From the NCBI GenBank assembly GCA_036504895.1, contig DASXUJ010000103.1, positions 1 through 60,734 of the forward strand: 60,734 nucleotides of DNA. The letters are read 5' to 3'. Shown piece by piece: positions 560 through 59,662 of the stretch. The notes below the pieces were generated by a model. It did no database searches, was not told the DNA's origin, and saw nothing but the letters and a program-made list of their open reading frames with translations. The first letter of the stretch is position 1. The number at the start of each line of letters is the position of its first letter. The position numbers were made by a program, and so were the translations under genes. Source of the stretch: Syntrophorhabdaceae bacterium. Lineage in GTDB: Bacteria > Desulfobacterota > Syntrophorhabdia > Syntrophorhabdales > Syntrophorhabdaceae.

Positions 560-598
560 TTGTTGCAAGGCACACTAATTTTACTCAAAGGGGGTATT

Positions 599-1624: not shown

Positions 1625-1654
1625 CCAGCTGAAAATATATTAGACATTACGACA

Positions 1655-1677
1655 GCCGGGGGGTCTTACTCCCCGGC
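1655..1677 (+). other. dctP-dctQ intercistronic hairpin
   Basis: A GC-rich stem (1655-1663 with 1669-1677) and a five-base loop sit between dctP and dctQ without a T run. By analogy with other binding-protein operons it may stabilise the dctP message or damp transcription into dctQM (inference). Confidence 0.6.
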
Positions 1678-1695
1678 GTCTCTTTAGGAGGTTTG

Positions 1696-2184
1696 ATGAA
1701 CGCATATCTTGCACTATTTAAGAGGCTCGTCGGCTGGATGAACGCGCTGGCGGGGGTCGTCCTCTTTTTCATGATGCTCCTTACGGTGGCGGATGTGATC
1801 CTGCGCGCGTTCGGCAGTGCGATCCTCGGCACCTATGAGCTGGTGGCCGTCTCGGGAGCGATAGTTGTCGGTTTCGCGGTACCAAAAACGACCTGGGACA
1901 AAGGCCATGTCTGCGTGGACTTCCTCGTGGAGAACCGCACGGAACGAGTGAAAAATATTGTATTTTTTATCACCCGCATCATGGGGATTTTACTCTTTTC
2001 CCTTCTTGCCGTTTTTTTGCTCAAAAAAGGGATCCATCTTTACAAGACCGGTGAGGTCTCCCTGACCCTCCACATACCTTATTTCCCTGCTGCCTGTGCG
2101 CTGGCCTTCTGCTTCTTCATAGAGGTCTTCGCCCTTATCGGAGATGTGTTCAAGATATTTATCGTGGAGAGAGAAAATGGATGA
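1696..2184 (+). CDS. dctQ: TRAP small permease DctQ
   Basis: Small membrane subunit of the TRAP transporter, 162 residues with four predicted transmembrane segments, which partners DctM at the cytoplasmic membrane. It shows the family pattern VADVILRAFGSAILGTYELV and the late HIPYFPAACALAFCFFIEVF segment. The ATG at 1696 is preceded by AGGAGG at 1686-1691; a TTG codon directly before it is in frame but less likely to be the start. The last eight bases overlap dctM, so the two are probably translated together. Confidence 0.93.
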   Translation: MNAYLALFKRLVGWMNALAGVVLFFMMLLTVADVILRAFGSAILGTYELVAVSGAIVVGFAVPKTTWDKGHVCVDFLVENRTERVKNIVFFITRIMGILLFSLLAVFLLKKGIHLYKTGEVSLTLHIPYFPAACALAFCFFIEVFALIGDVFKIFIVERENG

Positions 2185-6577: not shown

Positions 6578-6708
6578 AGTCTCTTTTATGAACCATCCCG
6601 ATCCGCCTTAGGGGGAAAACACGTGTTATTGTGCGAAAATAGCCTCATGGCATTCATGTTGCAATGGACCTGGGAAAGCAGAAAAACGGTTCATCGGAGG
6701 TCGCCATA

Positions 6709-7803: not shown

Positions 7804-8576
7804 ACTTACTGGTCTTTACCAAAAGAGTTCCCGCAACCCAGGAAGAGGAAGTGCGCATCATCGATGACGGGAAGGGGATTGATCTTGCCAAAATCCCTTT
7901 CAAGGTGAATGATTGGGACAATTACTCGGTGGAGGAGGCGGTACGCATCGCGGAGAAGACTGAGGGCACGGTAACCGCCATCTCCATGGGGGACCGGGAA
8001 TCGGATGAGGTGCTGCGGAGAGCCATTGCCATGGGAGCCCACAACGGCTCTCTCCTTCAACTCACGGAACCGCTTCACGACCCTTCTCAGAGGGCTGCCA
8101 TTGCCTGTAATTTCATAAAGAAAGAAAATATCCCCTTTGATCTGATATTTACGGGCGTCCAGTCGGAAGACGACCAGTTCGCCGCCATGGGAGGGATCCT
8201 CGCGGCAAAGCTCGACCTCCCTTACGTTTCCATGGTGATTGGCATCGATGAGATCGAAAAAGAGTACGTCATCGTGCGAAGGGAGCTTGAAGGGGGGCTC
8301 CAGGAGAAGATAAGGGTCTCCCTTCCCGCAATACTTGCTATACAGAGCGGGATCAATGAACCCCGGTACGTATCGATCATGGGGGTGAGAAAAGCATCCA
8401 AGGTCGAGCGCAAGGTCTATGAGGCTGAAGTATATAATGACGCCCCCAGGCTTATCGAAGTGGAGAGATGGGTCTATCCGCCGAAAAAAGGAGGGGCCCG
8501 GATGCTCGCGGGAGAGCTCGATGCGGTATGCAAAGACCTTCTCGGGATCTTAAAAGAAAAGGGGGTATACCAATGA
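7800..8576 (+). CDS. etfB: Electron transfer flavoprotein beta subunit
   Basis: EtfB, 258 residues, the adenine-nucleotide-binding partner of EtfA. With EtfA it takes electrons from acyl-CoA dehydrogenases. Typical features are the N-terminal LVFTKRVPAT, NDWDNYSVEEAVRIAE, the GVQSEDDQFAAMGGILAAKL block and a C-terminal recognition-loop region. The start overlaps the preceding stop (ATGA) and has GGAGGGA upstream. It lies directly between the HdrCB fusion and etfA, which argues that EtfAB docks with that iron-sulfur protein. Whether this ETF bifurcates (second FAD) cannot be settled by eye. Confidence 0.95.
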   Translation: MNLLVFTKRVPATQEEEVRIIDDGKGIDLAKIPFKVNDWDNYSVEEAVRIAEKTEGTVTAISMGDRESDEVLRRAIAMGAHNGSLLQLTEPLHDPSQRAAIACNFIKKENIPFDLIFTGVQSEDDQFAAMGGILAAKLDLPYVSMVIGIDEIEKEYVIVRRELEGGLQEKIRVSLPAILAIQSGINEPRYVSIMGVRKASKVERKVYEAEVYNDAPRLIEVERWVYPPKKGGARMLAGELDAVCKDLLGILKEKGVYQ

Positions 8577-9502
8577 GCTACGCGCTGATCGTCGCCGAAG
8601 TGCGAAAAGGCATTTTCGAAGAGAGGAACCTCGACTCAGCGGGCTTTGCCTCCCTTCTCCAAAAAGAAACGGTGCTCCTTATCCCGGAAGGCCCCTATGA
8701 GATCCCCCCCATTACGGAGCGCGTGCTCAAAGTCCCGGTGGAAGAGGCAACTTTCCTGAACCCTCTTTTTATGTCCACCCTCATACAAAAAGTAACGGAA
8801 CTGAAGGGAAAGCCGGACGCGGTGATTTTCACCTCATCTTCCTCGGGCACGGAGCTTGCCTCGTATAGTGCAGGGAAACTCGGCCTCCCTCTTATCACCG
8901 ATTTATCTGCCTACGACAAAGAGCGGGCCGTCTTCTTCAAAAGCTATTATTCGGACAAGATCTTCGGAGAATTCAAAGTGAAAGGAGAAGGACAATTCAT
9001 AGCGACCGTGCGGAGCGGGAGCTTCAAGGAGTTCGCGGTCACGAAAATACCCGCCACGGAGGCCATGGAGGCTGTGGCCGCAGGAGGCGAGCGGACGTTC
9101 CTCGGTTATGTGGAAGAGGAGAAGGGCGAGATCGACATCACGAAGGCTGAATTCCTCCTTTCCGTGGGAAGGGGCATAGGAAGCAAGGACGAGATCGCCG
9201 ATTATGAAGAGCTCGCCGGGATTCTCAGGGCAGTGCTCTCCGGCTCGCGCCCTGTCATCGACAAGATGTGGCTTCCCAAGGTCCGGCAGGTGGGCACCTC
9301 GGGCAAGACGGTAAAGCCTAAGGTCTATCTCGCCATGGGCATAAGCGGGGCGTTTCAGCACATCGCGGGGATGAAAGATTCGGAGTGCATCATCGCGGTC
9401 AATAAAGATCCGGAAGCGCCAATTTTTCAATATGCCCATTTCGGTATTGTGAGCGATGTGCATAAGGTGAGGGATAAACTTAAGGATATCGTCAGGGGAT
9501 AA
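8573..9502 (+). CDS. etfA: Electron transfer flavoprotein alpha subunit
   Basis: EtfA, 309 residues, carrying the FAD domain in its C-terminal third. SRPVIDKMW, VGTSGKTVKPKVYLAMGISGAFQHIAGM and NKDPEAPIFQYAHFGIVSD are textbook EtfA segments. The ATG overlaps the etfB stop by four bases and follows GGGGGTATACCA. The stop TAA overlaps the next ATG by one base, so the Hdr-like flavoprotein that follows is probably translated in step. No ETF:quinone oxidoreductase or FixC/FixX is encoded nearby, so the outlet for electrons is likely the Hdr proteins. Confidence 0.95.
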   Translation: MSYALIVAEVRKGIFEERNLDSAGFASLLQKETVLLIPEGPYEIPPITERVLKVPVEEATFLNPLFMSTLIQKVTELKGKPDAVIFTSSSSGTELASYSAGKLGLPLITDLSAYDKERAVFFKSYYSDKIFGEFKVKGEGQFIATVRSGSFKEFAVTKIPATEAMEAVAAGGERTFLGYVEEEKGEIDITKAEFLLSVGRGIGSKDEIADYEELAGILRAVLSGSRPVIDKMWLPKVRQVGTSGKTVKPKVYLAMGISGAFQHIAGMKDSECIIAVNKDPEAPIFQYAHFGIVSDVHKVRDKLKDIVRG

Positions 9503-18314: not shown

Positions 18315-18639
18315 GGAAAGGGGGCCAGGGGGGTTGCAGGGGACGACAACACTCTGATGCCTTAAATGTAAAGTTGTTGATATTTCATGTATTGAATATC
18401 AGTCATTCTTCCCGCTATATCCGAGGGGCGAGGCAGGGAGGATATGTTTTCATTAGTCGCCCAAAATAAGAAAAAGAGGTGAAGAAAGGGGGTGGATACC
18501 GAAGACAGGGGTCTAAGAAAGGTGGGAGAGGGGGTTTTTGTCAATAGCTTCCATGACCGCTCCGACCCTTCCGCACGACAGTATTTGCACAAGATTGGGA
18601 AGAGAGTGCCAGGAAAACACAAATCATAAGGGAGGATTT
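18315..18639. other. Gene-free region before the third TRAP operon
   Basis: No coding signal is seen here. It holds an imperfect dyad, TGATATT (18378-18384) and AATATCA (18395-18401), overlapped by a weak promoter-like pair (TTGTTG 18374-18379, 17 bases, TATCAG). A G/A-rich stretch follows from about 18420 to 18535. No convincing sigma-54 site was found, unlike the upstream region of the first dctP. Confidence 0.4.
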
Positions 18640-19671
18640 ATGAAAAGATCATCATGGATGGTATGTTGTTTCGCGGTTGCCGCGTTTTTGGCTTCATTTC
18701 TCGTTCCCTCCTATAGTTCTGCCCAGGAGAAGGTAGTCACCCTGAAGGTAGCGAACTGGTTTCCCATTACCCATAAGCAGAGCCTTCTTCTCGATGCCTG
18801 GGGCAAGGAAGTAGAGAAGAAGACAGGCGGGAAAGTCAAGGTCAATTATTACGCGGCCGGTACGCTTGTGCCCGCAGCCCAGAGTTACGATGCAGTGACC
18901 AAAGGCATCAGTGATGTGGGCAACCATGTCCTCGGCTACACAGTGGGTAAGTTTCCCCTCATGGAGATTATAGACCTTCCCCTGGGTTACCCGAACAACA
19001 CGGTTCCCACGAAAATGGCCAATGCCTTCTACAATAAGTTCAAACCCAAAGAATTCGAAGATATAAAGATCCTCTGGTTCCATGCCCAGGCCCCCGGTAT
19101 AGTCCACACAAAAATAAAACCCATATCGAAACTCGAAGATTTGAAAGGCATGAAGATGAGGACCTACGGATCGAACGCTAAATTGATGGGATACCTCGGA
19201 GGAACCCCGGTCGCAATGCCCATGACGGATGTGTACGACTCCCTCTCGAGGGGCGTGGCTGACGGGCTGATGGCCGCCTACGAGGCCCTCGAAGGCTTCA
19301 GGGTCGGAGAGCAGGTAAAATACCATACGGAGAATTACGAGACATCTTATAGCGCCACCTTTGTGGTGGTCATGAACAAGAAGAAATGGAATTCCCTGTC
19401 GCCGGACGTGCAGAAGATAATAGACGGGATGAGTCCCCAGTATATCGAGAAGTTTGCCGTCATGTGGGACGAAATTGAGAAAAGCGGAAAGGAATATTGT
19501 ATAAAACGGGGCAACAAGATCATCACCCTCGATAAGGCGGAGCAGGCGAGATGGGTCGCAAAGGCGGAACCTCTTTTTGACGACTATACAAAGAGAATGA
19601 AGGCAAAAGGACTGCCCGGCGAGGAGGCATTGAAGTTCGTCCGTGATTACCTGAAACCTTTCAGGAAATAA
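18640..19671 (+). CDS. dctP: TRAP substrate-binding protein DctP (second complete copy)
   Basis: Periplasmic receptor, 343 residues, with a Sec signal peptide cut after SSA near residue 28. It is strongly similar along its length to the receptor at 599 (shared KGMKMRTYGSNA, GGTPVAMPM, GVADGL and AYEALEG). Binding residues near the conserved arginine are the same class, so the ligand may be related. The start has GGAGG at 18631-18635; upstream in-frame starts would hide the signal peptide. It begins a dctP-dctQ-dctM operon placed right after the Hdr cluster and before an acyl-CoA ligase, which suggests uptake of an acid that is then activated to a CoA ester. Confidence 0.95.
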   Translation: MKRSSWMVCCFAVAAFLASFLVPSYSSAQEKVVTLKVANWFPITHKQSLLLDAWGKEVEKKTGGKVKVNYYAAGTLVPAAQSYDAVTKGISDVGNHVLGYTVGKFPLMEIIDLPLGYPNNTVPTKMANAFYNKFKPKEFEDIKILWFHAQAPGIVHTKIKPISKLEDLKGMKMRTYGSNAKLMGYLGGTPVAMPMTDVYDSLSRGVADGLMAAYEALEGFRVGEQVKYHTENYETSYSATFVVVMNKKKWNSLSPDVQKIIDGMSPQYIEKFAVMWDEIEKSGKEYCIKRGNKIITLDKAEQARWVAKAEPLFDDYTKRMKAKGLPGEEALKFVRDYLKPFRK

Positions 19672-19715
19672 GGGGATATCAGCATCGCTTTCCATTCTAT
19701 CGAGGAGGTAAGGGA

Positions 19716-20201
19716 ATGCAGGTATTTCATTCCGTGGTTTTGAGAATCGGACGGGTGATGGACGTGGTCGGGGGGATTATTCTCACGCTCATGATGCTGA
19801 TTACCGTCCTTGATGTGATCCTGCGGTTTTTCAAGAAACCGATCACCGGCACCTATGAGCTTGTATTCTTGGGAGGCGCCGTGGTAATCGGCTGCGCCAT
19901 TCCCCTCACGTCGTGGGAAGGGGGGCATGTCGCCGTAGATTTCCTGCTCGAGCATTTTTCACCGGCTTTGAAGAAAATGATCAATATTATCACGAGAGTG
20001 ATGGGGATCGCATTTTTTGCGGTCCTCGGAGCCAACCTCGCCATTCTCGGCACCGAACACTTTAAATCCGGAGAGGTCTCCCTCACCCTCCACGTACCTT
20101 ATTACCCGGCTGCGTACATTCTGTCTTTATGCGCTTTCGTGGAATGTCTCGTGCTCATATCGTTGCTTATAAAAACTATTTCCGGGGGCGAACATGAATG
20201 A
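19716..20201 (+). CDS. dctQ: TRAP small permease DctQ (second complete copy)
   Basis: Small TRAP membrane subunit of 161 residues with four hydrophobic segments. It shares TVLDVILRFFKKPITGTYELV and the HVPYYPAAYILSLCAFVE end with the copy at 1696. The ribosome site GAGGAGGTAAGGG precedes the ATG. The stop overlaps the dctM start by eight bases, the same arrangement as in the first operon. Confidence 0.93.
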   Translation: MQVFHSVVLRIGRVMDVVGGIILTLMMLITVLDVILRFFKKPITGTYELVFLGGAVVIGCAIPLTSWEGGHVAVDFLLEHFSPALKKMINIITRVMGIAFFAVLGANLAILGTEHFKSGEVSLTLHVPYYPAAYILSLCAFVECLVLISLLIKTISGGEHE

Positions 20202-21495
20202 GACCGTCGTGGGAATCTTCGCACTCTGTCTGCTCCTGGGACTCTTTCTTACCGGTATCGAGCTGGCATTTGCCATGGGCATCATCGGCGTCGTGGGATT
20301 CGCGTACCTTGTCGACGTGCCGGCTGCCATGGGCCTTATTGCCAACGATTTTTTCGATGCCCTTGCCTCCTATGGGCTGACCGTGATCCCCCTCTTTGTC
20401 CTCATGGGCCAGATCGCCTTCAATGCGGGCATCGCGAAGCGTCTTTATGATTGTGCCCACAGGTTCCTCGGTCATATACCGGGCGGTCTCGCTATGGCCA
20501 CGGTCGCCGGGGCCACGGCTTTCAAGGCAATCTGCGGCTCAGTAGCGGCCACGTCGGCTACCTTTGCGAGCGTGGCGGTGCCGGAGATGACCAAATACGG
20601 TTACGACAAAAAACTCTCTACCGGCATCGTGGCCACCGTCGGGACCCTGGGATGTCTCATCCCGCCCAGCGTGGTCCTGATTATTTTCGGTATCGTGACC
20701 CAGCAGTCGATCGGCCGGCTTTTTCTGGCCGGTATATTTCCCGGGCTGCTCATTGCATTCTTTTTTGTGGTAGTCATCTTCGGCTGGTGCAGGATCAATC
20801 CCTCTCTCGGCCCTAAGTGTGAGGCATTCACGTGGAGCGCCCGGTGGAAGACGGTGCCGGATGTGATATGGCCTCTCGTCATTTTCCTGGTGATCATCGT
20901 GGGTATGATGAAAGGGGTTTTTACGCCCACTGAAGCGGGCAGTATAGGGGCATTTTCAGTCCTCGTGCTATGCATCGCAAAAAAGAATATGAATTTCAGA
21001 GGTTATGTGAAATCGGTGAGAGAGTCCCTCAGGACCGCGTGTATGGTGCTGCTCCTCATCGCTACTTCAAACATGCTCGGACATTTTATCGCGGTGACCA
21101 ATATGCCGGTCCTTCTCGGATCGTGGGTCCTGGGCCTCACGTTGCCTGCCTATGTGGTATGCTGCATGATTCTCCTCATTTACCTGATTGGGGGATCGTT
21201 CATCGATGACCTTGCCTTCATGATCCTGGCAACGCCTATATTTTTCCCCATCATCACCAAACTCGGGTACGATCCCCTATGGGCGGGCATAATGGTGGCG
21301 CTTACCGTCTGCATCGGCTCCGTGGTCCCCCCGGTGGCCATATGCGTCTTCATCGTCAAGAATATTACGAAAGTGCCTATGGGCATTATTTATGCCGGAG
21401 TCTATCCCTTTCTTATCGCTCTGGTGATGGTGGTTGTACTCTGTTTTTTATTTCCCCCGATCGTCCTTTACCTGCCTAATCTGCTTATGCCTTAA
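20194..21495 (+). CDS. dctM: TRAP large permease DctM (second complete copy)
   Basis: Large TRAP permease, 433 residues, the same length as the copy at 2177. It has the matching landmarks VPLFVLMGQIAFNAGIAKRL, GATAFKAICGS, PPSVVLIIFGI and GGSFIDDLAFMILATPIFFP. The two proteins are close paralogues, but their DNA has diverged throughout, in contrast to the fragment at the window start. No strong terminator follows; a hairpin lies between it and the ligase gene. Confidence 0.95.
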   Translation: MNETVVGIFALCLLLGLFLTGIELAFAMGIIGVVGFAYLVDVPAAMGLIANDFFDALASYGLTVIPLFVLMGQIAFNAGIAKRLYDCAHRFLGHIPGGLAMATVAGATAFKAICGSVAATSATFASVAVPEMTKYGYDKKLSTGIVATVGTLGCLIPPSVVLIIFGIVTQQSIGRLFLAGIFPGLLIAFFFVVVIFGWCRINPSLGPKCEAFTWSARWKTVPDVIWPLVIFLVIIVGMMKGVFTPTEAGSIGAFSVLVLCIAKKNMNFRGYVKSVRESLRTACMVLLLIATSNMLGHFIAVTNMPVLLGSWVLGLTLPAYVVCCMILLIYLIGGSFIDDLAFMILATPIFFPIITKLGYDPLWAGIMVALTVCIGSVVPPVAICVFIVKNITKVPMGIIYAGVYPFLIALVMVVVLCFLFPPIVLYLPNLLMP

Positions 21496-45525: not shown

Positions 45526-47064
45526 GTGAACAACGAACAACCCCGTAAGGCAAGGATAAACATTGCTTTTATATCTCAGCTCATCTTTCTCTTCCTTTTC
45601 CTTATACTCTTCGTCACTACCGAGTATAGAGGGAAGGATGAGATTTCCATTGCCATCAACAGTTTCTTCAGGGCAAATCCCCTTGTGACCGCGAGTTACC
45701 TCTTCGCGGAAAAGGCCCTGACCTGGCTTTTGCTCCCGGGCGTGCTCATGATCGTTTTTTCCGCAATCCTGGGAAGATTTTTCTGCGGGTGGATCTGCCC
45801 CCTCGGAACCATAATCGACATGGCGACAAGAAAGATCAGAAAAAAGGGACCCATAAGAATGTTACAGGGGAACGTCAAGTACTACCTCCTTCTCCCCCTG
45901 CTTTTCGCCGCCCTCTTTAATGTGAATCTTGCAGGTATTCTCGATCCCATCGCCATATTGGTGAGGGCCCTCACCTTCTTTCTCTACCCGCTCCTCGGTT
46001 ATACGGTCCGCTCGGGCTGGACCGGCCTCTATGGCCTCATCGGGGAAAAGAGAGATTTTATCGAGCCGGCTTACGGGTTCATCAGGGATTATGTACTGCC
46101 TTTTCGGGAGACTTTCTATCCTCTCGCATTCCTCTCCTTCGGTCTTTTTCTCTTCATCCTTTTTCTCGAAAGGTATGAATCCCGGAATTGGTGCCGCAAC
46201 CTCTGCCCTCTCGGCGCCCTCCTCGGTTTATTGAGTAAATTTTCCATTTTCAGACGGCGTCCGGGAAAGGTCTGTGCCGATTGCGGACAGTGCGCCGACA
46301 TATGCCCCACCAGCTTCGATTCTGAGATTCTCAAGAAGGAAGAATGCATACTCTGCATGGAGTGTGAGGTGAAATGTAGGTTCCATCGCGTCAATTTCAC
46401 GTTGAAGAGGCCAAAAGGGGCAGTCGCGAAGGAGGCACCCCCCGTGATGGAGAGAAGAGTTCTCCTGGGCGGACTTGCCTCCGGGTTTTTTCTCAGCCGC
46501 GCCTTCTCCTTTTCTTCCCCCTCCAATCAGGAGAGGCTTTTGAGGCCGCCGGGGGCTCAAAATGAGGCGGAGTTTCTGAAAAAATGCGTGCGGTGCGGTG
46601 AGTGTATGAAGGTGTGCCTTAAGAGCGCCCTTTATCCCGATTATCATAAGGCCGGCCTCTACGGCTTTTTTATGCCCGTCCTGATCCCCCGTCTCGGCTA
46701 TTGTGAGTATAACTGCAACCTCTGCGGCCAGGTCTGCCCCACCGGGGCCATACCGAACCAACCATTGGAAAAGAAGAAGAAAAATATCATAGGCGCTGCC
46801 GCCTTCGATAAGAACCACTGTCTCCCCTATGCGAAGAAGATAGATTGCATTGTGTGCGAAGAGCACTGTCCCATCCCCGAGAAGGCCATCCGGACCGAAC
46901 CTGTGGAAATGAAGAATTTTGAGGGGAAGACTGTCACGGTGAAGCAGCCTTACATCGTGGAGGACCTCTGCAACGGATGCGGGATCTGCGAGTATGTCTG
47001 CCCCCTGGAGGGGAAATCCGCGGTAGAGGTCTACGCGAAGGTGAAGCGGAAAATCAAGCAATAA
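45526..47064 (+). CDS. NapH-NapG-like membrane polyferredoxin
   Basis: A 512-residue fusion with a GTG start. The N-terminal half is NapH-like: hydrophobic segments and the CGWICPLGT and CRNLCPLGALLG motifs of quinol-dehydrogenase membrane proteins. The C-terminal half is NapG/MauM-like, with repeated ferredoxin motifs (CADCGQCADICP, CILCMECEVKC, CVRCGECMKVC, CNLCGQVCP, CIVCEEHCP and CNGCGICEYVCP), so six or so [4Fe-4S] clusters. A hydrophobic signal-like anchor precedes the second half. It probably moves electrons between the quinone pool and the DUF362 protein or a periplasmic enzyme. A fused NapHG is uncommon but known in anaerobes. Confidence 0.85.
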   Translation: MNNEQPRKARINIAFISQLIFLFLFLILFVTTEYRGKDEISIAINSFFRANPLVTASYLFAEKALTWLLLPGVLMIVFSAILGRFFCGWICPLGTIIDMATRKIRKKGPIRMLQGNVKYYLLLPLLFAALFNVNLAGILDPIAILVRALTFFLYPLLGYTVRSGWTGLYGLIGEKRDFIEPAYGFIRDYVLPFRETFYPLAFLSFGLFLFILFLERYESRNWCRNLCPLGALLGLLSKFSIFRRRPGKVCADCGQCADICPTSFDSEILKKEECILCMECEVKCRFHRVNFTLKRPKGAVAKEAPPVMERRVLLGGLASGFFLSRAFSFSSPSNQERLLRPPGAQNEAEFLKKCVRCGECMKVCLKSALYPDYHKAGLYGFFMPVLIPRLGYCEYNCNLCGQVCPTGAIPNQPLEKKKKNIIGAAAFDKNHCLPYAKKIDCIVCEEHCPIPEKAIRTEPVEMKNFEGKTVTVKQPYIVEDLCNGCGICEYVCPLEGKSAVEVYAKVKRKIKQ

Positions 47065-47142: not shown

Positions 47143-49065
47143 ATGGAAAAATACCCCCACATCTTTTCCCCGGGCCGGATCGGGAAACTTACCGCAAAGA
47201 ACAGGGTCAAATATGCAGCAACGGAGACAAATTTTCCCTTTGGAGACGGCTTTGTCAGTGACAGGGAAATAGCCTATATGGAGGCCCAGGCGAGGGGCGG
47301 CGCCGGCATTGTCACGACCCAGGGCGCCTATCCGGACCCGAAGGGGGAGGGAAAGGGCTTTAAGGGAATGATGGCTATCTATGACGATGCCTTTGTTCCG
47401 GGTCTCGCGCGTATTGCCGATGTGATACGAGACAACGGGGCCCTCTCGTGCCTGCAGATCCTGCACTGCGGGAGAGAAGGCGGGGTGGAGCTTGACTACA
47501 GCCTCATGGCTTCGCCCGTCGCACAGAAGCTCTCGTACTTCAAGAAACCAAGGGAGATTACCGCGGCAGAGATCAGGCAATCGATCACGGACCATGTGAA
47601 AGCTGCGAGAAGAGGGGTTGATGCGGGGTACGACATGATAGAGATTTCAGGGATCGTGGGGTATCTCATCTCCACTTTCGTCTCCCGCTATACCAATAAA
47701 AGAGAGGACGCATACGGGGGAAATATCCGGGACCGTTGCCGCCTTATGGTAGAGATACTCGGCGCAATCAAGGAAGAGGTCGGTCATACCTTCCCCGTGG
47801 GCATACGGCTTTGCGGGCTCGAGCTTCTCGACGACAGGGGAGGGAACAGTTTTGAAGAGAGCCTGGAAAGCTTCAAGATCGCGGAACAGGCCGGCGCGGA
47901 TTATCTCAGTGTTACCATCGGGTGGCACGAATCGTCCCAGTCGGTGATTACGAGAGACGTGCCGATGGGCCATTGGCTTTACGTGGCGGAGGCAATAAAG
48001 AAAGAGGTCAAAGTCCCGGTCATGATGGCCTTTCGCCAGTTTCTACCCTCCATACCCGAAAAAGCCATTTCCGAGGGGAGGATTGACTTCTGGGAGGCGT
48101 GCCGTCCCATGATCGCGGACCCGGAGCTTCCGAAGAAGGCGCGGGAAGGGAGAGAAGAGGAGATCATTCCGTGCATCGCCTGCAATCTCTGTTTTTCGAG
48201 GCTCTATTTCCACCAGCCCATCGGGTGCTCGGTCCGGCCCACCCTGGGCAGGGAAAGGGATCCTGAATGGGGATATTACGGTTTCTCAAAAGTGGAGGCG
48301 CCGAAGAAGGTGATTGTGGTCGGCGGCGGTCCGGCAGGTCTTCAATGCGCGGCCGTGGCCGCTGAAAGGGGCCACAAGGTAACGGTTTTCGAAAAGAACG
48401 GCTTGCTCGGGGGTGCGGTGCTTCTCGCAGCGAAGGTCGACGAGGGGGCCGCGGAGCTTCTGCGGCCCGTCCGCATGCTCGAAGGCCAATGCAGGCGTCA
48501 TGGGGTCGACTTCCGTCTCGGCATTGAATGTACGCCTCAAATGATTGCCGGGGAAGGGGCGGATGTGGTGGTTATGGCCCACGGCGCAGCTCCGGCGCCC
48601 CTCGGGTCCGCCATGCAGGTGCTCTCACCGGAACAGGTCATGCTCCAGGGGGTAGAGCCTCCCGGGAGATTGGCTATCATAGGGGGAAAAGGGGTAGGGC
48701 TTGGGGTTGCCGTATTCCTCCTGCGGAATGGCAATTTCGAGATCACCATTCTGGAAGAGGGGAGCCGCCTCGGACGGGACGTGAACCCCTTCTATCTATG
48801 GCAATACGTGAGATTTATGAAGGAGAAGAAGGTCAGGCTCCTGACGGGTACCCGCATTCTTGACATTACCGGAGAGGGGATCCGGATTACAGGTCCTTCG
48901 GGAGAGACCACGATCGCCTGTGAAGGCATAGTAAATGCCAGGCAGGAGCCGGGAGCGGTATGGGACGGGTCAGCACGGGAAGTCTATTATATCGGAGACG
49001 GCAAGATGCCGAGACGAATAAATAACGCGATCCATGACGGTTATCGCGTGGGGATGAAAATCTGA
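47143..49065 (+). CDS. OYE/2,4-dienoyl-CoA reductase-like oxidoreductase
   Basis: Flavoprotein of 640 residues with an N-terminal FMN TIM-barrel of the Old Yellow Enzyme class (residues about 1-340). A [4Fe-4S] site CIACNLC...PIGC follows, then a C-terminal FAD/NAD(P)-binding domain (VVGGGPAGLQCAAVAAERGH). This is the layout of 2,4-dienoyl-CoA reductase and trimethylamine dehydrogenase. In anaerobes relatives reduce enoate or enone groups, including cyclic ones. CIACNLC lacks the last cysteine spacing of some FadH proteins but keeps four cysteines. The stop overlaps the ferredoxin start (TGATG), so the ferredoxin was probably its partner. Confidence 0.9.
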   Translation: MEKYPHIFSPGRIGKLTAKNRVKYAATETNFPFGDGFVSDREIAYMEAQARGGAGIVTTQGAYPDPKGEGKGFKGMMAIYDDAFVPGLARIADVIRDNGALSCLQILHCGREGGVELDYSLMASPVAQKLSYFKKPREITAAEIRQSITDHVKAARRGVDAGYDMIEISGIVGYLISTFVSRYTNKREDAYGGNIRDRCRLMVEILGAIKEEVGHTFPVGIRLCGLELLDDRGGNSFEESLESFKIAEQAGADYLSVTIGWHESSQSVITRDVPMGHWLYVAEAIKKEVKVPVMMAFRQFLPSIPEKAISEGRIDFWEACRPMIADPELPKKAREGREEEIIPCIACNLCFSRLYFHQPIGCSVRPTLGRERDPEWGYYGFSKVEAPKKVIVVGGGPAGLQCAAVAAERGHKVTVFEKNGLLGGAVLLAAKVDEGAAELLRPVRMLEGQCRRHGVDFRLGIECTPQMIAGEGADVVVMAHGAAPAPLGSAMQVLSPEQVMLQGVEPPGRLAIIGGKGVGLGVAVFLLRNGNFEITILEEGSRLGRDVNPFYLWQYVRFMKEKKVRLLTGTRILDITGEGIRITGPSGETTIACEGIVNARQEPGAVWDGSAREVYYIGDGKMPRRINNAIHDGYRVGMKI

Positions 49066-49300: not shown

Positions 49301-49759
49301 TCAGGGTATTCTTCTGCTGTTTTTAATAAGAAGTTTGAGATGCTCCAGGAGGGCGAGTTTCTCGTCGTCGGCAAACTCTCTCAGCATGGCGTGCATATAA
49401 TCGTCACGCTCCTTCTCGATATAGGTGAGCGTCCTTTTTCCCTTTGGCGTGATCTCAAGGATGGTGACCCGTTCATCGGTGGGATCCGACTTCCTGACTA
49501 TGAAACCGTTTTTCTCCAGACGCCGCGCGATGCCGGTCATATTGGCCACCGGCACGAGCATGATCCTGCTCACATGGGTGATGCGGCTCTGCCCGCCCTT
49601 GGATGCATCGAGTACCCTCAACATATTATATTGGGGAAAAGAGAGCGAATGCTTCCGGAAGATATTGGAGACCACTCTCTTGAAAGTCTCTGCGGCCCTT
49701 ACGAGGGCCATCAGCACGTTTTCATCGGCGCTCAGGTCGCTTCGATAGGTAATTCCCAT
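49301..49759 (-). CDS. MarR-family transcriptional regulator
   Basis: Winged-helix regulator of 152 residues. The recognition part runs SLSFPQYNMLRVLDASKGGQ and GIARRLEKNGFIVRKSDP, followed by the wing DERVTILEITPKGKR. MarR proteins are usually repressors released by small aromatic or oxidising ligands. The start has GAGGTGACAAC. It is divergent from the FAD-oxidase operon at 50130, with a repeated element in between, so it probably controls that operon and itself. The inducer may be the substrate or product of the enzymes to its right (inference). Confidence 0.9.
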   Translation of the reverse strand: MGITYRSDLSADENVLMALVRAAETFKRVVSNIFRKHSLSFPQYNMLRVLDASKGGQSRITHVSRIMLVPVANMTGIARRLEKNGFIVRKSDPTDERVTILEITPKGKRTLTYIEKERDDYMHAMLREFADDEKLALLEHLKLLIKNSRRIP

Positions 49760-49833: not shown

Positions 49834-49845
49834 GAGATAAATGCA

Positions 49846-49905
49846 TTGACAGTAAATATATTGATAGTTAACGTATTGACTTTTTATTGTTCCTTATGGT
49901 ATTCG
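49846..49905 (+). promoter_or_regulatory. Triple 15-bp repeat and promoter in marR/FAD-oxidase gap
   Basis: Three consecutive 15-base units, TTGACAGTAAATATA, TTGATAGTTAACGTA and TTGACTTTTTATTGT, start at 49846, 49861 and 49876. The third TTGACT (49876-49881) doubles as the -35 of a forward promoter with TATTCG at 49900-49905 (18-base spacer). The regular phasing suggests a MarR-protein binding region that controls both directions. Confidence 0.55.
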
Positions 49906-50129: not shown

Positions 50130-51587
50130 ATGCAAATCAAGAATGAGCTTGCAAAGATTGTAGGCAACGATTACGTCAGTGACAGCATGAAGGATCGCGA
50201 GAAATATTCGCGGGATTACAGCCTCCTTCCTCCCGGCCTCCCCGATGCCGTAGTATGGCCCGGAAGCTCCGAAGAGGTAGGTAAGATTGTAACATGGGCA
50301 AACGAAAAGGATATTCCCGTCGTCCCGGTAAGCTCCGCGGTCCATTTTCACGGCAGCAGCATACCGAAGCAGGGCGGCCTTGTCGTCGACCTTAAGAGAA
50401 TGAACAAGATTTTTGAAATCGACACTGACAACCGTCTGGTAAGGTTCGAGGCGGGCGTCACGTGGGAACAGCTCACCAAAGAGCTGGCCAAGAAAGGCCA
50501 CAGGGTAATTATGCCGTTGCTTCCCCATGGAGAACGGTCCGTGCTTACCGATACATTGGAGAGGGAAGTGCCCACCAATATCGTGTATGATTACGGCGAG
50601 CCCATGCAGTCGATCGAAGTCGTATGGCCTACCGGTGAATTGTTCAGATGCGGCTCCGCAAGCGTAAACGGATTTCCCGATTCAAAATCAAGAGGCGCCA
50701 ATCCTTCCGGACCCGGCCTCGATTTCTACAGGCTTTTTCAGCAGGCCCAGGGAACCATGGGAATCGTTACCTGGATGAGCTTGAAAATGGAGACAATCCC
50801 CACCATGGACAAGATCTTCTTCGCGCCGGTCTATGATCTTGAATATGCAATCAATTTCCTTTACAGGATCCTTCCCAGAAGGATCGGTCAGGAATGTCTG
50901 CTGTTGAACAATGTAGACCTCGCGGCTATCGCGGCCGACGCTTCGGGTGAAGATTTCGACGAACTGAGAGCGAAGCTTCCCCCCTGGGCCCTCATTCTCA
51001 CTATCAGCGGTCTCGTAAGAAGGCCGGAAGAGAAGCTCGCCTATGAAGAGAAGTTCCTTACCGATGTATTGAAAAATGAGTTCCCGAAAATGGGTCTCAC
51101 CGACAACCTGCCCGGTTTTCCCGGACTCGGCCGTAAGCTGATGCCCATGCTCAGGGCGCCGTGGCCGACGGACGTGCCTTACTGGAAGAACAGTGTGAAG
51201 GGTGGATGTCAGAACCTTTTCTTCATTACGAAACCGAATCGCGTGCCCATGTTCATGGAAGTCATGGAGCTCGTGGCCTCGAGATACGATTATCCTATGG
51301 GCGAGATAGGAAGCCACATTCAGCCTATCGAGCACAACAGGGCCTGCCAGGTAGAGTTCAGCTTTTTCTATGATGCCGATGACGCAGAGGAAAAAGAGCT
51401 TGTGGCAGCAATATATAAAGACGCAGCAACAGCGCTGTTCAACGAAGGCGCATTCTTTTCAAGGCCGTATGGAGTCCTTGCCCCCATGGTTTTCGACAAG
51501 GCCGCAGGATATACGGCAGCTTTAAAACGGGTGAAGAAAGTCGTCGATCCGAAGAACGTTCTCAACCCCGGAAATTTGGTCTTCTAA
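50130..51587 (+). CDS. FAD-linked oxidase (GlcD/VAO superfamily)
   Basis: Flavoprotein of 485 residues with an FAD_binding_4 domain (AVVWPGSSEEVGKIVTWANEKD; PVSSAVHFHGSS) and the FAD-linked oxidase C-terminal domain ending VDPKNVLNPGNLVF. The group includes D-lactate and glycolate dehydrogenases and vanillyl-alcohol/p-cresol-type enzymes that oxidise alpha-hydroxy acids or para-alkyl phenols. The start follows AAGGAGG. It is followed by a CCG iron-sulfur protein, the usual electron acceptor of such flavoproteins in anaerobes, and by a second flavoprotein. Substrate unknown; the neighbouring molybdenum hydroxylase makes an aromatic or aldehyde pathway conceivable. Confidence 0.88.
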   Translation: MQIKNELAKIVGNDYVSDSMKDREKYSRDYSLLPPGLPDAVVWPGSSEEVGKIVTWANEKDIPVVPVSSAVHFHGSSIPKQGGLVVDLKRMNKIFEIDTDNRLVRFEAGVTWEQLTKELAKKGHRVIMPLLPHGERSVLTDTLEREVPTNIVYDYGEPMQSIEVVWPTGELFRCGSASVNGFPDSKSRGANPSGPGLDFYRLFQQAQGTMGIVTWMSLKMETIPTMDKIFFAPVYDLEYAINFLYRILPRRIGQECLLLNNVDLAAIAADASGEDFDELRAKLPPWALILTISGLVRRPEEKLAYEEKFLTDVLKNEFPKMGLTDNLPGFPGLGRKLMPMLRAPWPTDVPYWKNSVKGGCQNLFFITKPNRVPMFMEVMELVASRYDYPMGEIGSHIQPIEHNRACQVEFSFFYDADDAEEKELVAAIYKDAATALFNEGAFFSRPYGVLAPMVFDKAAGYTAALKRVKKVVDPKNVLNPGNLVF

Positions 51588-51597
51588 GGAGGGAAAA

Positions 51598-52914
51598 ATG
51601 CCAAGCGATCGCTATGATACACCAAAAACACCAGTAGATCTTGATATAAGGAAACTGGATACTTTCAGGTATGACATGGACCATTGCATCAAGTGCAAAG
51701 GCTGCTATTGGGTCGAGCATACCTACATGCCGGGCGTGAATTGGTCGGTACGATGCCCGAGCAATTACTGGAACGATTTCGACTCTTATGGAGCTTTCGG
51801 TAAGATGAGAATAGGTCTCGGCATTATCGATAAGAAGCTGGAGTGGACCCCGAAGCTCCTCGAAATAGTCTACGCAGATCCTCTATGCGGCGCGTGCGAC
51901 GTAGCCTGCAAGCGTAACCTCGACCTTGAAATAGGTCTGACCCTCGAGGCTATGAGAGTAAGGGCAGTGCAGGACGGCGCGGGCCCGATGCCGGCGCACA
52001 AAGAGATTGCCAAGAACATCGCCACCAAACATAATCAATTCGGCGCTCCCCACGAGAACAGAAAGAAATGGATCACAAAAGACATCAAGGTTGCCGACAA
52101 AGCGGACATGCTCTATTTCGTCGGTTGTTCCGCCTCCTACAGACACCCTGAGATCGCGAAGGCGACGGCGAAGATCTTCAACGCCTCCAAAACGCCCTTC
52201 ATGCTGATGGCAGATGAGTGGTGCTGTGGAAATACCCTCTCCTCCGTCGGTATGCTCGACGAGGCCAGGGAGTTGGCGAAACGCAATATCGAAGCAGTAA
52301 AGGCATCAGGAGCGAAAAAAGTCGTATTGAGCTGCGCGGAAGGCTACCGCATGTGGAAAGTAGATTACCCGAAGCTCCTCAACATCAACACGGCAGACCT
52401 CGGTTTTGAGGTAATTCATCTGGTAGAGTTCGCCGATGCGGCAATCAAGGCCGGTTCGTTGAAACTCACCAAGCCCGTGGACGTACGATTTACCTACCAT
52501 GATTCCTGCGGCGTGAGCAGACTTGCCGATCCGTGGATCGAATGGAAAGGCACCCGGGGCTGGATGGGCTGTGTGGAGCCCGAACTGAAGAGAAGGCGCG
52601 GGACCAAGGGTCTCTATATCCAGACGAGAGACATCCTGAATGCCATACCCGGCGCAAAATTCGTCGAGATGCCCAGGACGAGAGAGAATGCGTTCTGCTG
52701 TGGAGCAGGCAGGGGGACCATGGAGGCCTATCCTGATCTCGCCTCAGTATCGGCAAAACACAGGATCGATGAAGTGAAGCATGTGAGTGCCGAGGCCGTC
52801 GTGGCCGCGTGTCCATGGTGCAAGAGCAATTTCTCCCAGGCAGTCAAAGAGAATGGCGACAGCGTGAAAGTAATGGATATTGCGGAGCTCATATCTGCCG
52901 CAGTTGAATTATAA
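51598..52914 (+). CDS. CCG-domain iron-sulfur protein (GlcF/HdrD-like)
   Basis: Protein of 438 residues with an N-terminal iron-sulfur region and two CCG-type blocks. CIKCKGC and a distant CP form the first site with an unusually long spacer; PLCGACDVACK forms the second. CCG block one is FVGCSASYR, EWCCGN and LSCAEGY (the usual CPxC is altered). Block two is complete: HDSCGVSRL, FCCGAGRG and CPWCKSN. It probably takes electrons from the two flanking flavoproteins and passes them to an Hdr- or quinone-linked acceptor. The start has AGGAGG. No membrane segment is seen. Confidence 0.88.
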   Translation: MPSDRYDTPKTPVDLDIRKLDTFRYDMDHCIKCKGCYWVEHTYMPGVNWSVRCPSNYWNDFDSYGAFGKMRIGLGIIDKKLEWTPKLLEIVYADPLCGACDVACKRNLDLEIGLTLEAMRVRAVQDGAGPMPAHKEIAKNIATKHNQFGAPHENRKKWITKDIKVADKADMLYFVGCSASYRHPEIAKATAKIFNASKTPFMLMADEWCCGNTLSSVGMLDEARELAKRNIEAVKASGAKKVVLSCAEGYRMWKVDYPKLLNINTADLGFEVIHLVEFADAAIKAGSLKLTKPVDVRFTYHDSCGVSRLADPWIEWKGTRGWMGCVEPELKRRRGTKGLYIQTRDILNAIPGAKFVEMPRTRENAFCCGAGRGTMEAYPDLASVSAKHRIDEVKHVSAEAVVAACPWCKSNFSQAVKENGDSVKVMDIAELISAAVEL

Positions 52915-52925
52915 GGAGGAAGGCT

Positions 52926-54536
52926 ATGAGTATAGTGAAAGCAGCTTACAATGCAATAGAGCAGGTAGTCGGGGCTAAATATATCTCCGAAGATCCGGCA
53001 CTGTGTGAAGGCTACCGCTCAGGGCCCGGAGGCTACGAGAGCGGTCTCGGATATGAGCGGGTCATGACCACCATTCCTCACGCGGTGGCATTACCGAAGA
53101 CAACCGAAGATGTACAGAAAATCGTAAAGATATGCAACCGGTATAAAGTTCCTTACGTACCGTACGCGACAGGTTTCTATGGCCCCCGTTCACACTGCCA
53201 TGTCGAAAACGAGCTTCTTATCGACCTGAAGAGACTCAATGACTTCGAAATCGACGAGAAACATTTCTGCATCAATGTCGGCGCAGGCGTGATCTACTCC
53301 CCGATCCAGCAGGAGTGCCTTAACAAAGGCGCTTATGTAGTTATCGGCGGCGGCGGCGCGCAGGCATCGGCGATCGCCAACCTGCTGGGCGACGGTTGGT
53401 CCCCTCTGAGCCACAGGATCGGCCTTCCCCACAGGCGTATTCTCGGAACTGAGCTCGTTCTGCCTGACGGCGAGCTGGTCAAGATGGGTTCCCTGGCGAA
53501 CGGTGACGACCCCTTCTGGGGCGACGGACCGGGACCGGACCTGAGGGCGATACTCAGGGGTTTCACGGGAGTCCGCGGCTGTCTCGGTATCGTGACGAAG
53601 ATGGCAATAAAGACCCTGCCCTTCCAGCCGGAGCCGCTCGTTCCCACGGGGATCTCTCCCAATACGGGACTTGCGCTGCCCACCAACCGCGTGAAATGGA
53701 TCAACTATCAGGTGCCGAGCAAGGCAGACCAGGTAAAGGCCATGTTCGAGGTGGGAAAGGCAGAGATTGCCGGCGCCATCACGAAGGTGCCTCTCTTCTG
53801 GCGCGCTATCAACAAGGCGGAGTGCAAGGAAGAGTTCTGGCAGTTGTGGGGCAAGGAGAACGAGGATACGATCAAGAATTTCTTCATCGTCCGCGTCCTT
53901 CTTATCGGCTACACCTCGGAAGAGCAGATGCAGTATGACGAAAACGTATTGAATGACATCATGGCCGAATGCGGCGCAGTACCCAGAGCAACGAGACCCC
54001 TCGATGAGTCGTGGATCAAGAATGCCGACTCCGCGGGTATGTGGCTCATGTGCGGTTCCTACGTGTCGGTCGATTATATTATCGAGTCTCTCTCTCAGGC
54101 GACGACTCATGGCGAAAGCTATGCGGAGACCAAGAAGAGATATACTCCGCCCCTTATGCCCGATTACGGCGATCCGGGCTGGTTCCAGAGCTTCGAGTGC
54201 GGCCACCAGGGATACTCGGAATTTCTCGTCTACTGGGATCAGGATGAGGACACCAACGGCGTCGACCAGTTCTATCTCGAAACCTCTAAGATGAACATCA
54301 GGGAGCGGTTCTATACCTCCCTGCTCGGACCTCACCAGCCCATGTACCTCACGGGCCCGATGTACGGACCGAATTACCACCAGTGGATGCTCAAAATAAA
54401 GGACGAATTCGATCCTCTGTGGGTATGCCATCCGCCGGTACCTCTGGCGCATGACGAGTTTGTGGACCGCGCCGAGTGGATGAAACCCATGAAGGACTGG
54501 GAAGCCCCGAAAGAGCTCCCCATGCCCAAGTGGTAG
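52926..54536 (+). CDS. FAD-linked oxidase (second, VAO-like)
   Basis: Flavoprotein of 536 residues, related to but longer than the 50130 product. The FAD_binding_4 domain reads ALPKTTEDVQKIVKICNRYK and YVPYATGFYGPRSH, with the pyrophosphate site IGGGGAQASAIANLLGDG. The substrate region (GVDQFYLETS; GPMYGPNYHQWMLKIKDEFDPLW) resembles vanillyl-alcohol/p-cresol-type enzymes in length, but I cannot confirm covalent-FAD residues by eye. The ending is rich in Trp and Pro. It closes the three-gene operon before a terminator. The two flavoproteins may be isoenzymes or a heterodimer; an aryl-alkyl oxidation is only a hypothesis. Confidence 0.85.
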   Translation: MSIVKAAYNAIEQVVGAKYISEDPALCEGYRSGPGGYESGLGYERVMTTIPHAVALPKTTEDVQKIVKICNRYKVPYVPYATGFYGPRSHCHVENELLIDLKRLNDFEIDEKHFCINVGAGVIYSPIQQECLNKGAYVVIGGGGAQASAIANLLGDGWSPLSHRIGLPHRRILGTELVLPDGELVKMGSLANGDDPFWGDGPGPDLRAILRGFTGVRGCLGIVTKMAIKTLPFQPEPLVPTGISPNTGLALPTNRVKWINYQVPSKADQVKAMFEVGKAEIAGAITKVPLFWRAINKAECKEEFWQLWGKENEDTIKNFFIVRVLLIGYTSEEQMQYDENVLNDIMAECGAVPRATRPLDESWIKNADSAGMWLMCGSYVSVDYIIESLSQATTHGESYAETKKRYTPPLMPDYGDPGWFQSFECGHQGYSEFLVYWDQDEDTNGVDQFYLETSKMNIRERFYTSLLGPHQPMYLTGPMYGPNYHQWMLKIKDEFDPLWVCHPPVPLAHDEFVDRAEWMKPMKDWEAPKELPMPKW

Positions 54537-55223: not shown

Positions 55224-56093
55224 ATGATACATGATTTTACGTACCTTAAACCCGGCACGGTTCAGGAAGCCCTGGCCATGCTCACCGACCACGTGGATGA
55301 CTGTAAGATTATCTGCGGCGGCCAGTCACTTCTTATCGTCATGCGGCAGGGCCTTATCGTAGTGAACTACCTGATCGACATCAAGGGATTGAAAGAACTT
55401 GATTACATCAAGTACGACGACAAAGAGGGCCTCAAAATTGGCGCAACGACGACCCACAGATCCATCGAATTCTCAAAACTGCTGAAAGAGAAGTACCCGA
55501 TCCTGCCAAAAATGGAAGAAAGGCTCGCCTCTACGCAGACCCGTAACTGGGGAACAATCGGCGGCAACCTTGCTCACGCCGATGCGGCCGGCGACCCGGC
55601 TCCCGTTCTCATTACTCTTGGCGCAAAAGTAAAGGTAGCATCCAAGAAGGGCGAGAAGGTTTATGATCTCGGAGAGTTCTACACCGACCTGTTCGAATCA
55701 GCCATGGAACATGACGAAATGATCGTCGAAATCCAGGTTCCTCCTATGGCCCCGAAGACCGGCTGCGCATACAAGAAGTTCAACCTCCTCCAGAACGACA
55801 TGGGCGTTGTGGGTGTGGCTGCGAAAGTGACGGTCGATGCAAGCGGAACCATCACTGACGCAAGAATCGTTCTCGGTAACGCAGGCGTGACCCCGATCCG
55901 TGCGACAAGCGCAGAGAAGGTTCTCATCGGAAAGAAACCCGATGACGCAATTTTTGCAGCGGCCGGAGAAGCAGCAGGCGCCGATGCAGACCCTGTGTCC
56001 GATATCCACGCGTCCGACGACTTCAGGCGCCACCTGATCAAAGTCCTGTCTAAGCGCATGGCAAAGCAGGCCTGGGAACAGGCAGTGAAATAA
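55224..56093 (+). CDS. Molybdenum hydroxylase FAD subunit (CoxM-like)
   Basis: Medium subunit, 289 residues, that binds FAD. The first FAD site is KIICGGQSLLIVMRQGL, the second TRNWGTIGGNLAHADAAGD. The C-terminal CO-dehydrogenase-flavoprotein domain runs to the end. It lacks the roughly 40-residue insert with four cysteines that carries the extra [4Fe-4S] cluster of 4-hydroxybenzoyl-CoA reductase, so electrons should flow the usual way, out to an acceptor. AAAGGAGATA precedes the ATG. Subunit order (M, S, L) and tight spacing show a single enzyme. Confidence 0.92.
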   Translation: MIHDFTYLKPGTVQEALAMLTDHVDDCKIICGGQSLLIVMRQGLIVVNYLIDIKGLKELDYIKYDDKEGLKIGATTTHRSIEFSKLLKEKYPILPKMEERLASTQTRNWGTIGGNLAHADAAGDPAPVLITLGAKVKVASKKGEKVYDLGEFYTDLFESAMEHDEMIVEIQVPPMAPKTGCAYKKFNLLQNDMGVVGVAAKVTVDASGTITDARIVLGNAGVTPIRATSAEKVLIGKKPDDAIFAAAGEAAGADADPVSDIHASDDFRRHLIKVLSKRMAKQAWEQAVK

Positions 56094-59209: not shown

Positions 59210-59662
59210 ATGTTAATTGAAGGTGGATTCACACTCAAAGCACCGATCGAGAAGCTGTATGATTTCCTTATGCAGCCTGAGACCGTGATGACCTGCATAC
59301 CCGGTACGGAATCGGTGAAGGTTATCGACGATAAGAGCTTTGAAAGCGTAGTGAAACAGCGCGTAGGCATCATCTCGGTAAAGCTGAAGTTCGTCACGAA
59401 GACGGTAAAGGCCGAGAGACCTACGTATGCCCAGTTTGAGGGCGAAGGCGAGGACATGACGAAGCTTGGACACTTCAAGCAGAAAACCGAGCTTTTCCTC
59501 AAAGAAGTCGCTCCCGGCGAAGTCGAGTTCTCCTATAAAGTCGATGTGGCTATCGTAGGAAAGCTGGCAATGTTCGGCGACCGTGTCATGAAGCAGAAAG
59601 CAAAAGATACAGAGAAGGTTTTCACCGCCAACCTGCAGGAAAAACTGAAGGCAATGGCATAA
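59210..59662 (+). CDS. CoxG-like SRPBCC protein
   Basis: A 150-residue protein of the CoxG/SRPBCC (START-like) family: GGFTLKAPIEKLYDFLMQPE opens the fold and the helix-grip pattern continues with VMTCIPGTESVKV and GKLAMFGDRVMKQKAK. CoxG proteins accompany molybdenum hydroxylases; in CO dehydrogenase it helps attach the enzyme to the membrane or bring quinone to it. Here it is the last gene before a terminator. GAGGAGG precedes the ATG. Confidence 0.88.
   Translation: MLIEGGFTLKAPIEKLYDFLMQPETVMTCIPGTESVKVIDDKSFESVVKQRVGIISVKLKFVTKTVKAERPTYAQFEGEGEDMTKLGHFKQKTELFLKEVAPGEVEFSYKVDVAIVGKLAMFGDRVMKQKAKDTEKVFTANLQEKLKAMA

Follow-up and report, generated by a model that had tools for sequence, protein, structure and literature searches.

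What kind of enzyme is encoded by two different flavoproteins flanking a single iron-sulfur (Fe-S) protein, and with which partner does it work? The question is raised by three adjacent genes in a 60,734-nucleotide stretch of DNA from Syntrophorhabdaceae bacterium (GenBank assembly GCA_036504895.1, contig DASXUJ010000103.1, positions 1 to 60,734), referred to as a whole as the window. A heterotrimer of a flavin adenine dinucleotide (FAD) protein, a CCG iron-sulfur protein and a second FAD protein has already been described, in two 2026 reports on benzene (PMC13416013, PMC13101534). What is new is the branch to which the window belongs, which is associated with a molybdenum (Mo) hydroxylase. 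A literature search for this clade recognised no description beyond these two reports of benzene trios. The genes of the trio are as follows.

50130-51587, + strand: FAD-A, a flavoprotein of the vanillyl-alcohol oxidase/p-cresol methylhydroxylase (VAO/PCMH) fold, 485 amino acids (aa), 54.5 kDa; PF01565 (FAD_binding_4), E 8e-24
51598-52914, + strand: CCG (HdrD-like) iron-sulfur protein, 438 aa, 48.9 kDa; PF02754 (CCG) in two stretches, E 8.5e-27
52926-54536, + strand: FAD-B, a second flavoprotein of the VAO/PCMH fold, 536 aa, 60.2 kDa; PF01565 (FAD_binding_4), E 2e-21

Reading frames and Pfam domains thus agree with the preliminary description of this locus, which had placed two different flavoproteins around one CCG protein. 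FAD-A and FAD-B share about 30% identity, limited to the FAD domain, and are two distinct proteins. The gaps of 10 bp between FAD-A and the CCG gene and 11 bp between the CCG gene and FAD-B suggest that the trio is one operon.

The three genes are a conserved, functionally linked set. Within the family of the source organism, 18 of 37 genomes (own genome counted) encode FAD-B at 74-100% identity, and a 19th genome, G011, has it only as a 53-aa fragment at a contig end. Across genomes drawn from the phylum it is present at an identity of at least 74% in 24 of 395, the own genome again included. An alignment scan with FAD-A over 84,980 species genomes returned 289 relatives, the best 80 of which were kept. 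Among these best 80 of 289, members of the window's clade are 54-93% identical to the window and include Desulfosporosinus sp. I2 (70%), Dethiobacter (69%) and a Pelotomaculum metagenome-assembled genome (67%), as well as Bacillota from gut or rumen, according to their record titles, at 54-59%. Dehalococcoidia, Acidobacteria and archaea have more distant trios, at 36-44% identity. In a quick maximum-likelihood tree built from 86 FAD-A rows, the window falls inside a clade of 35 rows with a Shimodaira-Hasegawa-like approximate likelihood ratio (SH-aLRT) support of 100; members of this clade come from both Desulfobacterota and Bacillota. The order FAD-A, CCG, FAD-B is retained in most intact loci across Desulfobacterota and Bacillota, and its persistence across phyla argues that the arrangement is not due to chance. 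Some of the distant loci, among them several from archaea, begin with FAD-B instead (L091, L098, L104, L107, L096). In one genome (G050, L032:7793-10771) the CCG protein and FAD-B are fused into a 992-aa reading frame with both matches in frame, which suggests that the two proteins touch each other and favours a physical complex. Desulfobacterium sp. TRIP AH-1 (L078) has a tandem pair of complete trios.

The second and defining association is with a Mo hydroxylase, encoded 687 bp downstream of the trio by three subunit genes.

55224-56093, + strand: Mo hydroxylase FAD subunit, 289 aa; PF00941, PF03450
56115-56600, + strand: Mo hydroxylase [2Fe-2S] subunit, 161 aa; PF01799, PF00111
56597-58906, + strand: Mo hydroxylase large subunit, 769 aa; TIGR03194 at 650.5 bits, cut-off 994.55

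The molybdenum hydroxylase previously noted as a neighbour is therefore present with all three subunits, and the supposition that it belongs with the trio is supported by comparison between loci. Of 47 loci belonging to the window's clade, 22 have Mo-hydroxylase genes no more than 7 kb from the trio; among loci from other clades the figure is 0 of 63. The clade was assigned on one trio protein at an identity of at least 54%; the count leaves out the window and 14 loci fetched from relatives, and many of the counted loci end at contig ends. Removing loci that are duplicates on the same contigs (L068 = L155, L085 = L137, L078 = L133) changes the counts to 21/46 and 0/61. Fisher's test on 22/47 against 0/63 gives p 2e-10, a value that overstates independence as the loci are related. 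The first set of loci comprised 39 nearer and 41 distant ones; 12 of the former have a Mo-hydroxylase FAD subunit next to the trio, and none of the latter received a Mo-hydroxylase label. Among 10 further loci of the clade, picked regardless of their neighbours, eight carry the Mo genes. On the FAD-A tree the presence and absence of the Mo genes requires nine changes, and the Mo large subunits are of two types, 63-90% identical to that of the window in some loci and 35-47% in others. Taken together, the nine changes and the two types indicate that the link between trio and Mo enzyme has been retained or made repeatedly. A YqeC/MocA-like gene adjoins the trio in two loci (L138, L147); YqeC/MocA proteins have a role in the handling of the Mo cofactor.

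For both Mo types the best solved relative is the alpha subunit of 4-hydroxybenzoyl-CoA reductase (1rm6; E 2.8e-122 for that of the window), an enzyme that likewise has three separate subunits. The window subunits nevertheless fall below the NCBIfam cut-offs for this enzyme (650.5/994.55, 119.2/404.55 and 164.3/257.8 bits), and none of the 15 matches to the large-subunit family on several host contigs exceeds the alpha cut-off. A true 4-hydroxybenzoyl-CoA reductase was rejected as the identity of the neighbour, the alpha, beta and gamma cut-offs all being missed. The Mo enzyme is closer to a CoA-thioester dehydroxylase than to an aldehyde oxidase.

To what family do the flavoproteins belong, and does this identify the substrate? 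By Pfam domain and predicted whole-chain fold, FAD-A and FAD-B are members of the VAO/PCMH flavoprotein superfamily. The AlphaFold2 model of FAD-A has a mean predicted local distance difference test score (pLDDT) of 89.6 and aligns with vanillyl alcohol oxidase 9ffk over 463 residues (VIA-align Z 36.5, 2.7 Å) and with p-cresol methylhydroxylase 1dii (Z 35.1). D-lactate dehydrogenases reach Z 35.6, a tie within 1 of 9ffk. The model of FAD-B has a mean pLDDT of 83.7, with residues 190-218 largely below 50; its top matches are D-lactate dehydrogenases (Z 28.9 to 8jde), and it gives Z 27.2 to 1dii. As the fold is common to proteins of the PchF type and of the D-lactate dehydrogenase type, it does not choose the substrate.

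The composition of the trio is not novel either. The preliminary description took one GlcD-like protein with one GlcF-like partner to be the usual system, which is only partly right, since E. coli GlcDEF comprises two flavoproteins and one Fe-S protein and the benzene trios also have two flavoproteins. GlcDEF is the closest characterised architecture named for the trio of ORM2 (PMC13101534). Twin flavoproteins as a novelty in themselves were accordingly rejected.

The CCG protein does have unusual features, and two of them had been correctly picked out beforehand. Its first cluster motif has a long spacer (C30-x2-C33-x2-C36-x16-C53-P), and its first CCG block is altered, with C177, C209-C210 and C246-A-E-G249 (CAEG), so that Gly249 stands where the last cysteine is expected. 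A CxxG ending of this block is found in 9 of 46 aligned rows, the window included, and a near relative (L041) has CxxC, which indicates that the change is recurrent. In the second motif (D94-x2-C97-x2-C100-x3-C104) the first cysteine is replaced by Asp94; aspartate occupies this position in 16 of the 46 rows, the window again included, and cysteine in the remaining ones. Aspartate is able to ligate a [4Fe-4S] cluster or to leave a [3Fe-4S] cluster, and judging from the motif Asp94 may shift the potential of this second cluster. All cysteines of the second CCG block are present (C304, C367-C368, C405, C408). One aligned row (L073) lacks every CCG cysteine and is either misaligned or degenerate. 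With CCG proteins of the HdrD/TfrB/GlpC type the window protein shares a dicluster ferredoxin-like part and two CCG domains, but it differs from them in the x16 spacer, the aspartate of motif 2 and the glycine of the first CCG block. Its Fer4_8 match is under the Pfam cut-off, and its best NCBIfam match, TfrB at 146.3 bits, is under the cut-off as are all others.

How does the window's clade relate to the benzene trios? The proteins BzS1_12970/80/90 and ORM2 proteins 24-26 ('Magic') were reported with the same FAD-CCG-FAD order (PMC13416013, PMC13101534). On benzene, roughly one fifth of the proteome detected in BzS1 consists of the trio, for which a role as benzene dehydrogenase has been proposed; its homologs in NaphS2 and Desulfosarcina variabilis, at 23-42% identity, reportedly have different functions (PMC13416013). 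The most abundant proteins of ORM2 are 24-26, with only ten public contigs at 51-76% identity or close synteny, and two of the four Fe-S motifs of protein 25 lack the expected cysteines (PMC13101534, section 12 for the motifs). The benzene trios resemble that of the window in the order FAD, CCG/Hdr-like, FAD, in PCMH-type FAD domains, in Fe-S motifs short of cysteines and, by and large, in subunit size (54.5/46.5/65.8 kDa in BzS1 versus 54.5/48.9/60.2 kDa). They differ in the third subunit, which is larger in BzS1, and in their neighbours, which are CoA transferases, MaoC, a ligase and beta-oxidation genes in the benzene trios versus MarR, Mo hydroxylase, CoxG and an old-yellow-enzyme (OYE) protein in the window. 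No CoA-transferase pair with MaoC was found beside the window trio. Searches across the phylum with FAD-B and with a 589-aa FAD-B of another clade, together with 20 contexts, recognised no such cluster, a weak negative as no CoA-transferase III or MaoC reference was included. Given how many public genomes carry the window's clade, its identity to ORM2 is expected to be under the 51-76% range. Identity ranges and neighbours, rather than direct sequence comparison, thus set the window's clade apart, and it is probably distinct from the benzene branch.

With moderate confidence, we interpret the trio as a probable two-flavin/CCG dehydrogenase complex that acts on an aromatic, probably carboxylated substrate, is paired with the Mo enzyme and takes part in a peripheral aromatic-acid pathway. 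The proteins would form a heterotrimer, probably cytoplasmic and free of cytochrome, from the VAO/PCMH superfamily and with an architecture of the GlcDEF kind. FAD-B would most likely bind the substrate, and a hydride would pass from the aromatic, probably a carboxylate or CoA ester, to its FAD. We infer FAD-B to be the catalytic subunit because, of the three proteins, it varies least among members of the clade and most beyond them, as expected of a subunit specific for the substrate. Electrons would then travel through FAD-A and the Fe-S clusters of the CCG protein to the Hdr/Etf/quinone network of the cell. Oxidation by the trio, the presumed direction, would be one step of the pathway; the others would be uptake by TRAP transporters, CoA activation by an AMP ligase and (de)hydroxylation by the Mo hydroxylase, leading to benzoyl-CoA and a Bam-type reductase.

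An aromatic substrate is likely because of the relationship of the Mo enzyme to 4-hydroxybenzoyl-CoA reductase alpha and because the host genome (4.35 Mb) has a Bam-like cluster. This cluster encodes a 656-aa AFOR-type protein, then a 179-aa, a TfrB-like 383-aa, a 947-aa HdrA-like and a NuoE-like protein; from its gene content we read it as a putative class II benzoyl-CoA reductase (Bam), which no family model named. A carboxylate is indicated by the CoA ligases and TRAP transporters of some loci. Up to 7 kb from the trio, an AMP ligase is encoded in 12 of 47 clade loci versus 6 of 63 others, and an acyl-CoA dehydrogenase in 10 of 47 versus 3 of 63. TRAP genes directly follow the trio in L139 (DctP, DctQ, DctM) and in L149, and the window has two related TRAP sets (560-3478 and 18538-21495) with DctM 70% and 68% identical to that of L139, as well as an AMP ligase at 21.6 kb.

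Several observations weigh against this interpretation. No Mo hydroxylase is in view in 25 of the 47 clade loci, many of them cut by contig ends, so that the Mo enzyme is not obligatory. TRAP transporters are not specific to the clade (5/47 versus 4/63 other loci). Members from rumen and gut are flanked by CoA transferase, GntR and other genes instead, so that the clade need not share a single substrate. Finally, most of the catalytic residues of PCMH are lost in FAD-A, and FAD-B cannot be reliably mapped onto them.

The last point bears most directly on the alternative that survives best, namely that FAD-A and FAD-B act in the manner of PCMH on a p-cresol-like phenol, hydroxylating its methyl group by way of a quinone methide, with the CCG protein replacing the cytochrome and the Mo enzyme oxidising the resulting aldehyde. 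Fold and best full-length profile match (PCMH/VAO) are those expected. In PchF, Tyr95, Tyr473, Arg474, Glu380 and His436 have substrate or catalytic roles. Of this set, tested in FAD-A, Arg474 alone is invariant (R445, in all 46 rows). The position of Tyr95 is His, Tyr or another residue, being Tyr or His in many clade members; that of Tyr473 is Ser or Thr; Glu380 corresponds to Pro350 and His436 to Gln407 in the window, the latter position being mostly Gln or His with some Arg in other rows. The covalent-FAD residue Tyr384 aligns with the variable N354, and a nearly invariant Tyr351 lies three columns off. No c-type cytochrome partner was found in the window or in most loci read, where a CCG gene lies between or beside the flavoproteins, not every neighbour being annotated. 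As the Mo enzyme is nearest to a reductase of CoA thioesters and not to an aldehyde oxidase, we regard PCMH-like hydroxylation as unlikely. The earlier conjecture that the set could oxidise a methyl- or hydroxy-aromatic stepwise through alcohol and aldehyde to acid is supported in part: the aromatic substrate stands as likely, and the stepwise route is not favoured by the residues of FAD-A or the type of the Mo enzyme.

More speculatively, the trio might belong to a branch that is sister to, and commoner than, that of the benzene-activating flavoprotein and shares its unexplained chemistry, a dehydrogenation of aromatic ring or side-chain C-H bonds with neither cytochrome nor radical enzyme. 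It may then prepare an aromatic acid or CoA ester for the Mo enzyme resembling 4-hydroxybenzoyl-CoA reductase, with Asp94 and the altered CCG block tuning the cluster potentials. We consider this idea doubtful.

An ordinary relative of GlcDEF, acting as a D-2-hydroxyacid dehydrogenase on glycolate or lactate, is improbable. It would account for the subunit set (PMC13101534), for the D-lactate dehydrogenases at the top of the FAD-B fold matches and for the matches of both flavoproteins to the GlcD model. The scores of these matches, 83.5 bits for FAD-A and 56.5 for FAD-B, are nevertheless far from the cut-off of 567.9, as is that of the CCG protein to GlcF (36.7 versus 333), and FAD-oxidase_C was not reported in the Pfam scan of either flavoprotein. 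The motif E-H-G-x-G belongs to the C-terminal domain of D-2-hydroxyacid dehydrogenases and is present in the sequence of D-lactate dehydrogenase (LDHD). It occurs in 0 of 46 FAD-A rows and 0 of 42 FAD-B rows, which speaks against a lactate or glycolate substrate, and this candidate was rejected on that ground.

Electron bifurcation in the manner of LctD-EtfAB, an analogy that the BzS1 authors proposed for their own trio (PMC13416013), is very improbable here. LctD is a fold relative of FAD-A (Z 33.0), and bifurcation would make sense in an anaerobic host; the EtfAB that marks LctD-EtfAB is, however, absent beside the trio in the window, where electron-transfer-flavoprotein-like genes (7719-9502) lie 40 kb off.

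That the trio is an ortholog of the putative benzene-activating enzymes we find hardly credible, for despite the shared order, domain content and missing cysteines, the neighbours and the third subunit differ, the ORM2 relatives are few and the window's clade is found in many genomes, including those of gut and rumen.

Returning to the two-flavin/CCG dehydrogenase with its Mo partner, the sequences around the two gene sets give some indication of how they may be controlled.

49301-49759, - strand: divergent MarR/HpaR-like regulator; PF12802/PF01047, HpaR at 54.6 bits, cut-off 121.2
49845-49889, + strand: three ATTGA direct repeats in 15-bp steps upstream of FAD-A; a run of three in 0 of 300 shuffles
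59210-59662, + strand: CoxG/SRPBCC protein; PF06240, E 1.8e-17

A MarR-like gene is found near FAD-A in seven loci of the species-genome set and is kept in genomes of the Syntrophorhabdaceae type. Runs of at least two ATTGA repeats occur in 9 of 11 intergenic regions, a count that leaves out the GTTGA variant of L044 and L048, which escaped the pattern. The marR/FAD-A intergenic regions showed no inverted repeat in common. From their position, the repeats could be the operator of the divergent MarR protein, and the last TTGAC among them could be a -35 box. On the + strand between the trio and the Mo genes, a consensus scan gave seven promoter-like sites (mean of shuffles 4.2) and no terminator-like site.

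The CoxG/SRPBCC gene likewise stands beside the trio and the Mo genes in L059 and L061. Neighbours other than the Mo genes vary and include PtsI, PurF, FeoB and two-component systems. Downstream of the trio, four Bacillota loci (L053, L055, L065, L072) encode a MadB-type AAA ATPase, a CoxE-like VWA protein and a third product of 186-190 aa, perhaps a maturation system. In three loci of the Syntrophorhabdaceae type (L044, L045, L046) FAD-B is followed by a 608-aa protein with an AAA_5 match only and then by a protein of about 400 aa with no Pfam match. Elsewhere in the window, both TRAP sets lie near acyl-CoA dehydrogenase or ligase genes. A second CCG protein (379 aa) opens the region 6664-9502 and precedes the electron-transfer-flavoprotein-like genes, which were read from sequence. 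A 512-aa polyferredoxin (45526-47064) matches NapH in its N-terminal half and NapG in its C-terminal half, and just upstream of marR (47143-49065) lies the OYE-family flavoprotein, similar to mycofactocin OYE and BaiCD, under cut-offs.

To our knowledge, the enzyme for the oxygen-free attack on benzene has been a long-standing unknown. The two 2026 reports that address it are based on enrichment cultures (PMC13416013, PMC13101534). The same architecture, repeatedly linked to a Mo hydroxylase, is now found in many genomes, including those of Desulfosporosinus sp. I2 and of Syntrophorhabdus relatives, making the substrate of this branch accessible to standard experiments on growth, proteome and expression. 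Its function would reveal the range of the FAD-CCG-FAD engine and the residues that separate it from the benzene branch.

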